Source: Alphaproteobacteria bacterium MarineAlpha12_Bin1 (GTDB lineage Bacteria > Pseudomonadota > Alphaproteobacteria > UBA6615). From it: a stretch of 64,000 bases of DNA. Under the pieces are notes generated by a model that had not been told where the DNA came from, did not search any database, and saw nothing but the letters and a program-made list of their open reading frames with translations. How positions within the stretch are numbered: position 1 is the stretch's first letter; every line of letters begins with the position of its first letter. Shown in pieces: positions 21,191 to 29,290 of the stretch. Made by a program: the position numbers and the translations under genes. The DNA lies in the NCBI GenBank assembly GCA_002937505.1, contig PTJY01000002.1:62001-126000 (forward strand), read 5' to 3'.

Positions 21191-21706
21191 ATGGCAAGAA
21201 TTCCGTATAGCAATATGACAGGACTTGAACCTGATCTTAAAGAAGAGCTATCAAAACGTCCTGATGCAAACATATATCGAATGCTGGCTAATGGAGGCAA
21301 TGCGGCTCTTGGCTACCTCAAAATGGGTAGTGAAATAAGATTTAATGCTGTTTTAAGTCCAACATCGCGTGAACTAATAATCCTTCGCACGGGATCTTTA
21401 TGTAAATCAATATATGAACTCGACCATCACACAATAATTGCTCGTAATATTGGATTGGAAGAAACAAAAATTAATGCCGTAATTCATACCGGATCCAAAT
21501 CGGAAGTCTTGGATGATTTCGAGAAGTGCTTAATGATATTTACTGAAGAAACTGTAAAAGATGGAAAAGCAAGTGAAAAAAGCTTTTTCAATCTAGCTGA
21601 ATATTACAGCCACGAGGAATTGATAGAAACCACCTTACTTATAGGATTTTATATGCTCACCTCTCGTTTTTTACAAACTTTTAACGTAGACCTCGATGAA
21701 CATTGA
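21191..21706 (+). CDS. Carboxymuconolactone decarboxylase (CMD)-family protein
   Basis: This 171-residue all-helical CMD-like protein has the helix-turn segment SPTSRELIILRTGSLCKSIYELDHHTIIA near residues 58-85. The His in DHH corresponds to the conserved family His. The redox CxxC of AhpD is absent: a single Cys occurs, and no in-frame TGA is present. GGAG lies 6-9 nt before the ATG. It is divergent from the selenoprotein frnE gene, with a shared intergenic region of 68 bp, so the two may be co-regulated. It could be a lactone decarboxylase or hydratase-like enzyme, or a redox protein relative. Function unknown. Confidence 0.85.
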   Translation: MARIPYSNMTGLEPDLKEELSKRPDANIYRMLANGGNAALGYLKMGSEIRFNAVLSPTSRELIILRTGSLCKSIYELDHHTIIARNIGLEETKINAVIHTGSKSEVLDDFEKCLMIFTEETVKDGKASEKSFFNLAEYYSHEELIETTLLIGFYMLTSRFLQTFNVDLDEH

Positions 21707-26879: not shown

Positions 26880-27503
26880 TTACTCCGCTGCCATGGACTG
26901 CAATGATAAAGGTGCTGCCCCATAAAGTCGTTCTGATTCTTCCTGACCAACCAAACGACCATCTGGCGAATACATAGGGTAGAACTTTAATGTTCCAAAG
27001 AATGTGTGATACCCCGCATTAAAACATAAAAAGATACCTATCTGAGTAATTTCATCTTCACTGAGATGTTTGCGTAAATTCTCATAATATTCGGCATCTA
27101 AAGAATCAGGATCCTTCATTACCAAATCTACATGATTCAGTATTGCTTTCTCCTTATCATCAAGATGTTCACTATCTGCATAATTATTTATGCCATCGTC
27201 AATAAGTTCTTCTGTAAGTCCGTCCCGCTTCGCCGAAGCAGATCGTACATTACCTCAATAGCTACAGTGCGCCCGACGGGACAGAGAAACACGCATAATT
27301 TCCTTAATTTTATGACTAAGATTTCCTGAGTTAAATGATACTGCCCAAGCTTCATAGTTAGCTATAGCAAGATCAATGTTATGCCCTAACATCGCCAAAG
27401 CACCCGGATCAGGCGCTTTGTGTTCTAGGCTTCGTTCGATATAGGGCTTAAGTTTAGTCTTTTTAAGCTCTTCTATATCAAGCATAGTAATATTTGGTGC
27501 CAT
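26880..27503 (-). CDS. AhpD/CMD-like selenoprotein, copy 1 (Cys80-Ser-Tyr-Sec83)
   Basis: One 207-residue protein is encoded if the in-frame TGA at 27255-27257 is read as selenocysteine. ATG 27503 has AGGAGG 5 nt upstream. The active-site segment reads RRAHCSY-U-GNVRSASAK, a CxxU version of the CxxC redox pair of AhpD-type CMD proteins. The frame stays open across the 43 codons between the TGA and the next ATG, and the C-terminal half keeps the CMD helical pattern (ILNHVDLVMKDP, FNAGYHTFFG). A SECIS-like hairpin sits at 27224-27242. The paralogue at 28170-28793 has the same TGA at the same codon. The likely role is a peroxide- or disulfide-reducing enzyme served by the nearby thioredoxin. Confidence 0.88.
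26920..27215. repeat. 296-bp perfect direct repeat, unit A (with 28210-28505)
   Basis: This segment is identical base for base to 28210-28505, at an offset of 1290 bp. It covers most of the C-terminal half of the first CMD selenoprotein gene. Mismatches flank it at 26919 and 27216. The central part of the two genes (upstream of the TGA) is strongly diverged, so the identity reflects recent conversion or partial duplication rather than general slow divergence. Confidence 0.95.
27224..27242 (-). promoter_or_regulatory. SECIS-like hairpin, CMD selenoprotein copy 1
   Basis: On the minus strand UCUGCUUC pairs with GAAGCGGG over 8 bp (three G-U pairs), closing a GGC loop whose first base is G. The stem begins 12 nt after the UGA at 27255-27257. 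The size and spacing match the hairpins of the other two selenoprotein genes. Confidence 0.78.
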
Positions 27504-27576: not shown

Positions 27577-27606
27577 AAAAGCCGGCGGGAACAGCCGACG
27601 GCTTTT
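27577..27606 (-). terminator. Strong rho-independent terminator, probably bidirectional
   Basis: AAAAGCCG pairs with CGGCTTTT; after one G-A mismatch three more GC pairs close a 6-base loop. With an A-run on one side and a T-run on the other it can end transcripts in both directions. It lies between the CMD paralogue ending at 27643 and the selenoprotein starting at 27503. The downstream selenoprotein therefore probably has its own promoter or receives only readthrough. Confidence 0.85.
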
Positions 27607-27642: not shown

Positions 27643-28170
27643 TTATTGAGAACTGCCAAACGACCTCATGGCCATATGTGCCCCATGGTAAAGAGCAATG
27701 AATGCTCCAAGTTCCATAACCTGAGCCTCGGTATAATGCTTCTTCAACTCGTCATAGAGTTCCTTGTCTACTTTGCTCGAGTCTAGGAACATTTGATCAG
27801 CGTAACGAAGAGCTACTTTCTCTGCTTCGGTAAAAAAATCTGAATCCTCATAATCTCCTGAGCCAGCGTCAATTACCTCTTCAGTAAGCCCCATGTCCCT
27901 TGCCTTGGTTGAACGTAAACCAGAAGAATATGAGTCTTCCGAAAAACGGGCTAACTGAATACGAATAATCTCTTTCAATCTGTGGTCAACATTACCTTCA
28001 GTAAAGTTCAAAAGCATTACTTTCAATAAAGCTTTAGCCTGTTCAGGCATCCTTGCTACTATACGAGGAAATTCACCACCCGGAACTCCAAGTTCTTCAC
28101 ACTTTTCAACGAGTTCCCTTAGTTCTGGATCAGTGATCTCATTTATGTCTAAAGGCTTTATTACTGTCAT
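27643..28170 (-). CDS. CMD-like paralogue without redox residues (Asp/Ser in place of Cys/Sec)
   Basis: This 175-residue CMD-like protein aligns with the two flanking selenoproteins. The active-site segment reads SEDSYSSGLRSTKA, where Cys80 and Sec83 of the paralogues become Asp and Ser, so no thiol or selenol pair remains. Its ATG overlaps the TAA of the upstream selenoprotein gene (TAATG), indicating tight coupling and probably a fixed ratio with it. It may be a structural or regulatory partner in a mixed oligomer. It has lost its redox function, or it works by another chemistry. A strong terminator follows the gene. Confidence 0.85.
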   Translation of the reverse strand: MTVIKPLDINEITDPELRELVEKCEELGVPGGEFPRIVARMPEQAKALLKVMLLNFTEGNVDHRLKEIIRIQLARFSEDSYSSGLRSTKARDMGLTEEVIDAGSGDYEDSDFFTEAEKVALRYADQMFLDSSKVDKELYDELKKHYTEAQVMELGAFIALYHGAHMAMRSFGSSQ

Positions 28171-28793
28171 TACTCAGCTGCCATGGACTGCAGTGATGAA
28201 GGTGCTGCACCATAAAGTCGTTCTGATTCTTCCTGACCAACCAAACGACCATCTGGCGAATACATAGGGTAGAACTTTAATGTTCCAAAGAATGTGTGAT
28301 ACCCCGCATTAAAACATAAAAAGATACCTATCTGAGTAATTTCATCTTCACTGAGATGTTTGCGTAAATTCTCATAATATTCGGCATCTAAAGAATCAGG
28401 ATCCTTCATTACCAAATCTACATGATTCAGTATTGCTTTCTCCTTATCATCAAGATGTTCACTATCTGCATAATTATTTATGCCATCGTCAATAAGTTCT
28501 TCTGTGAGTCCGTCCCGCTTCGCCGAAGCAGATCGTACATTGCCTCAATAACTGCAGTGTGCCTGTCGGGACATAGAAACTCGAATAATTTCCTTTAATT
28601 TATGATCTAAACTTCCGGTTCCGAAGGCCGTTGTCCAGGCTATATACATCGACTCGGCCAGGTCAATATTGTGGCCCATCATAGCATGAAAACCCGGATC
28701 CGGTGCTTTGTGCTCTAGGCTTTGTTCTATATAGGGCTTAAGTTTTGTCTTTTTAAGCTCTTCTATATCTAGCATAGTAATATTTGGTGCCAT
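28170..28793 (-). CDS. AhpD/CMD-like selenoprotein, copy 2 (Cys80-Ser-Tyr-Sec83)
   Basis: A 207-residue protein with an in-frame TGA at 28545-28547 read as Sec83. ATG 28793 is preceded by AGGAGA at good spacing. The active site is RQAHCSY-U-GNVRSASAK. The length and Sec position equal those of copy 1 at 26880-27503. The two proteins differ mainly in residues about 38-70, just before the active site (GHNIDLAESMYIAWTTAFGTG here). It is followed with a one-base overlap by a redox-dead paralogue and preceded by a thioredoxin gene 38 bp upstream. This arrangement suggests that thioredoxin reduces the Se-S bond of the CMD protein. Two parallel nonsense mutations at the same codon are much less likely than Sec. 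Confidence 0.88.
28210..28505. repeat. 296-bp perfect direct repeat, unit B (with 26920-27215)
   Basis: This is the second unit of the perfect direct repeat, inside the C-terminal half of the copy 2 selenoprotein gene. High similarity continues on both sides to the gene end and to just beyond the TGA, with scattered differences. Recombination between the units would delete the intervening redox-dead paralogue and the terminator. Confidence 0.95.
28514..28532 (-). promoter_or_regulatory. SECIS-like hairpin, CMD selenoprotein copy 2
   Basis: The sequence and fold are identical to the hairpin of copy 1: an 8-bp stem with a GGC loop, starting 12 nt after the UGA at 28545-28547. Nearby bases have diverged between the copies (for example the codons just before and after the UGA), while the hairpin is unchanged. 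Confidence 0.78.
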
Positions 28794-28831: not shown

Positions 28832-29161
28832 CTATGCGTAAGATTCAACTAGTTTTTTTAATACCTGCCTTCTATCTACCCCTGTCCTTGTTTCAATAAC
28901 TTCCCCGTTTTTAACAAATAACAAGGTTGGAGTAGAACGAATACCAAAACGATCTAAAAGACTAGTATTTTCTTCTGCCTTAACAGTGCCTATCCTAACC
29001 CCTTCAGGCAAATCGGGAGCCAGTTGCTTAAGGACCTTTGTCAACTGTATGCACGGTACGCAAGAATCAGACCAAAAATCAATCACCGTCAGTCCTCTGT
29101 GACTCATAACCCTACTATCAAAATTTTGCTCACTAAACTCTGCAAAATTATGGCGATTCAT
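28832..29161 (-). CDS. Thioredoxin-like protein (CVPC active site)
   Basis: This thioredoxin-fold protein has 109 residues. ATG 29161 was preferred over the upstream TTG because GGGGA lies 6 nt before it. The active site is DFWSDSCVPC, with Cys34 and Cys37, and the cis-proline is in IRSTPTLLFVKNG. The usual WCGPC is changed to SCVPC, so its redox potential or partner range may differ from housekeeping thioredoxin. No signal peptide, hence cytoplasmic. It is the first gene of the minus-strand run leading into the CMD selenoproteins and is the natural candidate for their reductant. Confidence 0.92.
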   Translation of the reverse strand: MNRHNFAEFSEQNFDSRVMSHRGLTVIDFWSDSCVPCIQLTKVLKQLAPDLPEGVRIGTVKAEENTSLLDRFGIRSTPTLLFVKNGEVIETRTGVDRRQVLKKLVESYA

Positions 29162-29290
29162 TATTTTCCCCAAGCTAGAAAAGTATTTGCTAGTATTCTA
29201 AACATCAAAGTTTAAATTAACCTAAGCTGAGCGCATTGTGCAATCCCTAATCACTTAATAACAGTCAAGTAGGATGCGAGGAATCTAATC

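Follow-up and report, generated by a model that had tools for sequence, protein, structure and literature searches.

The gene at 26880..27503 on the minus strand of the window (the whole 64,000-nucleotide stretch analyzed here) most probably encodes a selenoprotein of the CMD/AhpD fold, in which TGA at codon 83 is decoded as selenocysteine (Sec). We place the probability of this reading at about 0.9: the decoding is what we infer, and the Sec machinery and a SECIS-like hairpin are both present in the genome. That the codon is a genuine Sec codon, and neither a sign of decay nor a sequencing error, is strongly supported. The gene is one of two copies, and the features of the region are as follows.

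26880..27503, minus strand: Sec gene copy 1, a 207-aa protein of the CMD/AhpD fold with Sec at codon 83 in a CSYU motif (translation, PF02627, Shine-Dalgarno-like GGAGG, orthologues)
27255..27257, minus strand: Sec codon TGA of copy 1, codon 83 (translation; TGA in every locus covering the site)
27214..27257, minus strand: UGA with bacterial SECIS-like hairpin, stem GCUUC/GAAGC, apical loop GGC (synonymous constraint, covariation, position)
27581..27599, minus strand: terminator-like hairpin with T run, in the interval separating the partner from copy 1 (weak; 3 such sites, with 1.9 expected from shuffled sequence)
27643..28170, minus strand: partner gene, a CMD paralogue in which Asp takes the place of Cys80 and Ser that of Sec83 (translation, alignment, trees)
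28170..28793, minus strand: Sec gene copy 2, the conserved form, in an operon-like unit of thioredoxin, Sec gene, and partner (translation; family-conserved residues kept)
28545..28547, minus strand: Sec codon TGA of copy 2, codon 83 (translation)
28832..29173, minus strand: thioredoxin (active site CVPC), the immediate upstream neighbor of copy 2 (PF00085, E 9.9e-19)

Copy 1 runs from an ATG at 27503, preceded by a Shine-Dalgarno-like GGAGG, to a stop at 26882-26880. Its 207 codons, with TGA read as U, include a single in-frame TGA (27257-27255) in the context ...RRAHCSYUGNVRSASAK..., a CxxU motif, and standard ORF calling cuts it into ORFs of 83 and 81 aa. The initial annotation had the coordinates, the codon, the flanking CSY, and the length right, the strand being minus; its sister copy 1290 bp away (28170-28793), with the same TGA codon and the same length, was likewise borne out, as was the hairpin shared by the two (GCUUC-GGC-GAAGC in both). 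Both copies score above the Pfam gathering cut-off of 23 for CMD (PF02627; 23.4 and 31.3 bits) and so belong to the CMD superfamily. A further, distant CMD-family gene with neither CxxC nor CxxU lies in the window at 21191-21706 on the plus strand.

A homogenized tandem pair

The second copy had been described as an independent paralogue, and retention of TGA in both copies had been offered as an argument against sequencing error or gene decay. This description is wrong. The copies are a tandem pair that has been homogenized after the TGA, where nt 289-584 are identical without a break (296 nt), and dS between them falls from 0.91 upstream of the TGA to 0.07 downstream. Because this 296-nt identity reflects concerted evolution, the copies do not provide independent evidence and the argument from their agreement fails; the case for Sec rests on other genomes, on the Sec machinery, and on the SECIS. 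The accompanying statement that other parts of the gene had diverged holds for nt 91-210 (55 to 63% identity) but not for nt 1-60 (97%) or the identical tract. The pattern of identity points to gene conversion as the route of concerted evolution, and the duplicated pair in this genus would then be an example of a Sec gene evolving in this way.

In G001, a genome of the same genus, contigs break within both copies, and the overlap is identical at 99/99 nt, TGA and hairpin included; such an overlap is also the typical remnant that an assembler leaves at a repeat, and it shows that at least this stretch is common to the copies. Another genome of the genus, G002, carries a single Sec copy (L050, 5001-5630) whose flanks match those of copy 2 and of copy 1, which points to recombination between the copies with loss of sequence or else to a collapsed assembly.

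In other genera, a single Sec gene stands between a thioredoxin gene upstream and the partner downstream; copy 1 is therefore the addition. It is also the derived copy, a tandem duplicate of copy 2 that is specific to this lineage and lies outside the thioredoxin-Sec-partner unit, and the weak terminator-like site (27581..27599) suggests that it is a transcription unit of its own. Gene conversion would keep both of its ends similar to copy 2, with residues ~24-80 changed and substrate or partner preference probably altered as a result.

The changes in copy 1 are also what would be seen in a decaying duplicate or pseudogene that is tidied by gene conversion from copy 2, within a family that itself makes Sec. 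Copy 1 has lost F35, H36, M49, T55, L66, and I70, each conserved in ≥90% of the family and all kept by copy 2; its omega before the TGA, measured against the G002 gene (L021), is 0.31, compared with 0.00 for copy 2, and its position is outside the unit and past the terminator-like site. We nevertheless judge decay to be quite unlikely, given that copy 1 has no frameshift or extra stop, that Glu68, Cys80, Tyr82, the TGA, and the hairpin are intact, that omega in the diverged segment is near 0.2 to 0.3 and well below 1, that a Shine-Dalgarno-like site stands ahead of the start, and that both copies also occur in a second species.

Conservation of the codon, the hairpin, and the Sec machinery

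Searching related genomes and one genome per species gave 76 rows for the Sec gene, among which 69 DNA sequences are distinct; some genomes appear twice because they were seen through two tools. The gene was found in alpha- and betaproteobacteria, Nitrospinota, and Tectomicrobia. Four rows (L066, L069, L075, and L077) are labeled Klebsiella pneumoniae, Bordetella parapertussis, and Devosia equisanguinis; these labels look unreliable, as the rows are metagenome bins whose Sec genes group with environmental proteobacterial sequences. TGA stands at codon 83 in every row that covers the site (L105 ends short of it), and the 65 orthologues that were aligned all have it there, with no further in-frame stop. 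As expected of a selenoprotein gene, both the UGA and its flanking coding sequence are conserved: the median NG86 omega is 0.21 before the TGA and 0.23 after it (672 pairs, which are not independent, so that the figures are descriptive). The initial annotation had proposed a dN/dS calculation of this kind, with neutral codon evolution or frameshifts downstream as the sign of its being mistaken; purifying selection persists beyond the TGA, where omega never exceeds 0.50.

No Cys orthologue of the Sec gene turned up when a profile was run against 398 genomes of the phylum, and the best match outside the window's own genome scored 61 bits, versus 361 and 341 bits for the two copies. The nearest Cys relatives are distinct paralogues from the same bacterial family, with CEYCGNQRS-type motifs and scores of 103 to 112 bits against the profile; among them, L128, L129, and L130 (CEYCGNQRS or CEFCGNQRS) are the CxxC paralogues closest to the Sec and partner clades. 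The TGA aligns with the second Cys of the CxxC in these nearest relatives, another property expected of selenoproteins, and there is no close Cys orthologue. Among the genomes examined, the family seems to exist in the Sec form only.

Published models of the bacterial SECIS place a stem-loop 16 to 37 nt past the UGA, with a loop of 3 to 9 nt and a G in its first two positions (PMC13188914). The copy 1 hairpin agrees with this description, with an early G in a GGC loop that starts 20 nt after the UGA. Codons 89-92 (GCT TCG GCG AAG) show zero synonymous change across 65 genes, one of which has Thr for Ala at 89; in 56 other conserved degenerate columns, the codon entropy is never below 0.54 and has a median of 1.3. 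In the aligned stretch of the partner gene, codon choice is free at the conserved Ser87 and Ala90 (entropy, 1.4 and 1.5). Changes on both sides occur in just one hairpin pair, 18-32, which is always paired (CG 29, UA 16, UG 11) and couples a silent change at a Ser codon with an Arg/Gln replacement. Folding energy compared with that of shuffled sequences is unremarkable (z, -1.8 and -1.4) and weak when taken alone, and we therefore rely on the synonymous-site constraint and on the paralogue as a control. An Rfam scan of the whole window returned no match, so that no cataloged SECIS model covers the hairpin.

SelA, SelB, SelD, and tRNA-Sec, the full set expected of a host that makes selenoproteins, are all encoded in the window's genome (2.34 Mb in 12 contigs). 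A tRNA-Sec with anticodon TCA (UCA; 72 bits), selA (592 bits), selB (464 bits), and selD (285 bits) lie within ~8 kb, at 169-177 kb of the contig on which the window occupies 62-126 kb. SelD forms the C-terminal half of a 762-aa protein whose N-terminal half is NAD(P)H-dehydrogenase-like (L107:9114-11402; G000:C5, ~175.1-177.4 kb), a fusion of the Ndh-SelD type mentioned previously (PMC2398784). Within the same family, selA is present in 18/18 genomes with the Sec gene and in 2/6 without it, a split with a chance of ~0.001 (hypergeometric, 15/10626) when genomes are treated as independent, several of those lacking both being incomplete. The distant holders of the Sec gene also have selA in 30 of 33 cases. 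It lies within ~7 kb of the Sec gene in 9 of the 18 same-family genomes, and in G009 the two are divergent neighbors separated by ~200 nt.

These observations leave little room for other readings of the codon. Were the TGA a true stop, giving two short proteins or one truncated product as the 83-aa and 81-aa ORFs of standard calling would have it, the domain would be cut in the middle of its redox motif; purifying selection is equal on either side, TAA or TAG never replaces TGA in orthologues, and a hairpin frozen at synonymous sites coexists with a complete Sec machinery, all of which makes a stop scarcely credible. Conservation of the TGA, omega on both sides, and the frozen hairpin also led us to reject a plain stop or a sequencing error. 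A long conserved frame past the TGA would fit reading by a reassigned code or by general readthrough as an amino acid other than Sec, a proposal that we hold to be just as improbable in view of the alignment with Cys of CxxC relatives, the dedicated hairpin, the Sec machinery, the co-occurrence of SelA with the gene, and the many orthologues that use TGA as their final stop.

The partner gene

Copy 2 is followed by a third CMD paralogue, and the junction in the window is TAATG, the ATG of the partner overlapping the stop of copy 2. Asp is invariant at the Cys80 position of the partner; the Sec83 position is Phe or Ser across the family, being Ser in the window and Phe in most relatives. This paralogue with neither Sec nor Cys follows the Sec gene on the same strand in 66/71 rows with enough flank, a count in which some genomes figure twice; four of the five rows without it come from two same-genus genomes seen twice (L021/L050 and L036/L099), and the fifth is copy 1. 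No partner was found at the Sec locus of G002, which counts against a strict need for the partner unless that assembly collapsed. With start codons guessed from the nearest ATG, 36 of 46 Sec-partner junctions overlap or lie within 20 nt; overlaps of -1 or -4 account for 14.

In phylogenetic trees, the Sec proteins and the partners are sister clades, with every Cys homologue placed outside them (Sec, 98/96; partner, 100/99; joint, 100/99). With the nearest Cys paralogues as the outgroup, the two remain together (97/86), and the Sec clade is weaker (83/96). Since the sister clades hold together, the Sec/partner pair is an old duplication that has been inherited jointly.

We regard a two-subunit complex of the Sec protein and its partner as an evenly balanced prospect. 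In such a complex, the Sec protein would assemble with a sister subunit that carries Asp and Phe/Ser instead of Cys and Sec, and at some loci this redox enzyme would have a thioredoxin of its own. A more elaborate version, which we put forward as doubtful, is that the Sec-only subunit is joined to a catalytically emptied sister and that the overlapping stops and starts (TAATG, ATGA, TGATG) make translation of the partner, and hence the complex, selenium dependent. Partner output might then track Sec decoding because a ribosome halted at UGA83 would never reach the overlapping start, and such a dependence would amount to a simple selenium-sensing expression device.

Fold, likely reaction, and known relatives

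AlphaFold models of the Sec protein and the partner are confident (mean pLDDT, 86 and 88) and have the AhpD/CMD fold, matching Streptococcus pneumoniae AhpD with a Z of 15.7 (rmsd 2.8 over 174 residues) and Bmp8 with a Z of 13.9; a fold shared with both leaves the reaction unsettled. Glu68, Cys80, and Sec83 are invariant in the family, and an equally invariant Arg87 occupies the position of the AhpD proton-relay His, so that the Glu, Cys, Cys, His relay of AhpD alkyl hydroperoxidases is not present as such. The His at that position is AhpD His137, and the Glu-Cys-Cys-His relay is that of M. tuberculosis AhpD. The likeness to AhpD (PDB 6e8l and 1knc) extends from the fold to a redox CxxC at the Sec site and a conserved Glu (E68) 12 residues ahead of the first Cys; the present family differs in having Sec where AhpD has the second Cys and in the invariant Arg87.

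In neighborhoods built from homology-supported frames, thioredoxin is directly upstream in 14/55 loci, and the other neighbors (CoA-transferase, FAA hydrolase, class-III aminotransferase, HMGL-like, cupin, and TctC) make up catabolic surroundings. One all-antisense neighborhood component (component 1) was regarded as shadow ORFs, which spoil longest-ORF calling in GC-rich genomes.

The gene product is most probably a thiol/selenol oxidoreductase of the AhpD/CMD fold that contains selenocysteine. To read UGA83 as Sec, the ribosome would use the hairpin 20 nt downstream together with SelB and tRNA-Sec, and Cys80 and Sec83 would form the redox pair, as suggested by alignment with the CxxC relatives. 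An organic hydroperoxide or another two-electron acceptor would most likely be reduced, leaving a Cys-Sec selenenylsulfide that thioredoxin, in the window possibly the product of the adjoining gene, would then reduce. A peroxidase-type reaction is the one we lean toward. The protein might instead be a reductive dehalogenase, the selenium counterpart of the debrominase Bmp8, which ranks first in the PDB by sequence for both subunit profiles (E 2e-12 and 8.5e-10) and heads the Foldseek results for the two models. We think this rather unlikely, as AhpD-type structures align equally well or better by VIA (Z, 15.7 versus 13.9), identity is just ~14 to 23%, and the gene neighborhoods offer no pointer to halogen chemistry. 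Bmp8 (PDB 6ohi and 6ohj), the best solved-structure match by both sequence and Foldseek, also differs in having CxxC instead of CxxU, with Cys and not Sec, and a Trp aligned to Glu68 of the Sec family; its identity is ~20%.

AhpD/CMD-type CxxU selenoproteins have been in the literature since 2005 (PMC1088965, PMC2398784, PMC9312934, PMC13188914). The named families include "AhpD-like" and "CMD domain-containing protein" from the Sargasso Sea and "AhpD-like 1/2" from GOS (PMC1088965, PMC2398784, PMC13188914). Like these published families, the one described here combines the CMD/AhpD fold and CxxU with a bacterial SECIS right after the UGA and is found in aquatic bacteria. For the published families, Cys homologues occur in the very samples that yielded the Sec forms, whereas none was found for the present family, in which a sister gene lacking Sec and Cys follows. 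This distinction is drawn from descriptions, and the family may overlap with those lists. Neither the Sec-only state nor the fixed, emptied partner is described in the literature examined. The Sargasso Sea survey sought Sec/Cys pairs and required Cys homologues with >50% Cys/TGA pairs (PMC1088965); filters of this sort can overlook a Sec-only family or merge it with others, and standard gene calling halves the gene.

The best NCBIfam matches of the Sec protein and the partner are NF053654 (YciW-related (seleno)protein) and TIGR01926 (peroxidase-related enzyme). The two window copies score 36.6 and 42.4 bits against a curated cut-off of 310 for the former and 36.5 and 34.4 bits against 81.8 for the latter; neither copy reaches any NCBIfam cut-off, and other family members match the same models.

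The same genome holds a third CMD selenoprotein candidate (P0005; G000:C1:561973-562611, minus strand; L106:974-1612, minus strand), of 212 aa, with a CKYU motif, TGA at codon 84, and a CMD score of 35.1 bits. It resembles the classic AhpD-like type, and G002, of the same genus, also has a TGA-bearing relative (C1:329524). Another family of the class holds a more distant CMD gene (L039; G050:C7:31617-31967) that has an in-frame TGA in a CNLU motif; its genome has selA, and the gene represents another Sec lineage of the CMD fold.
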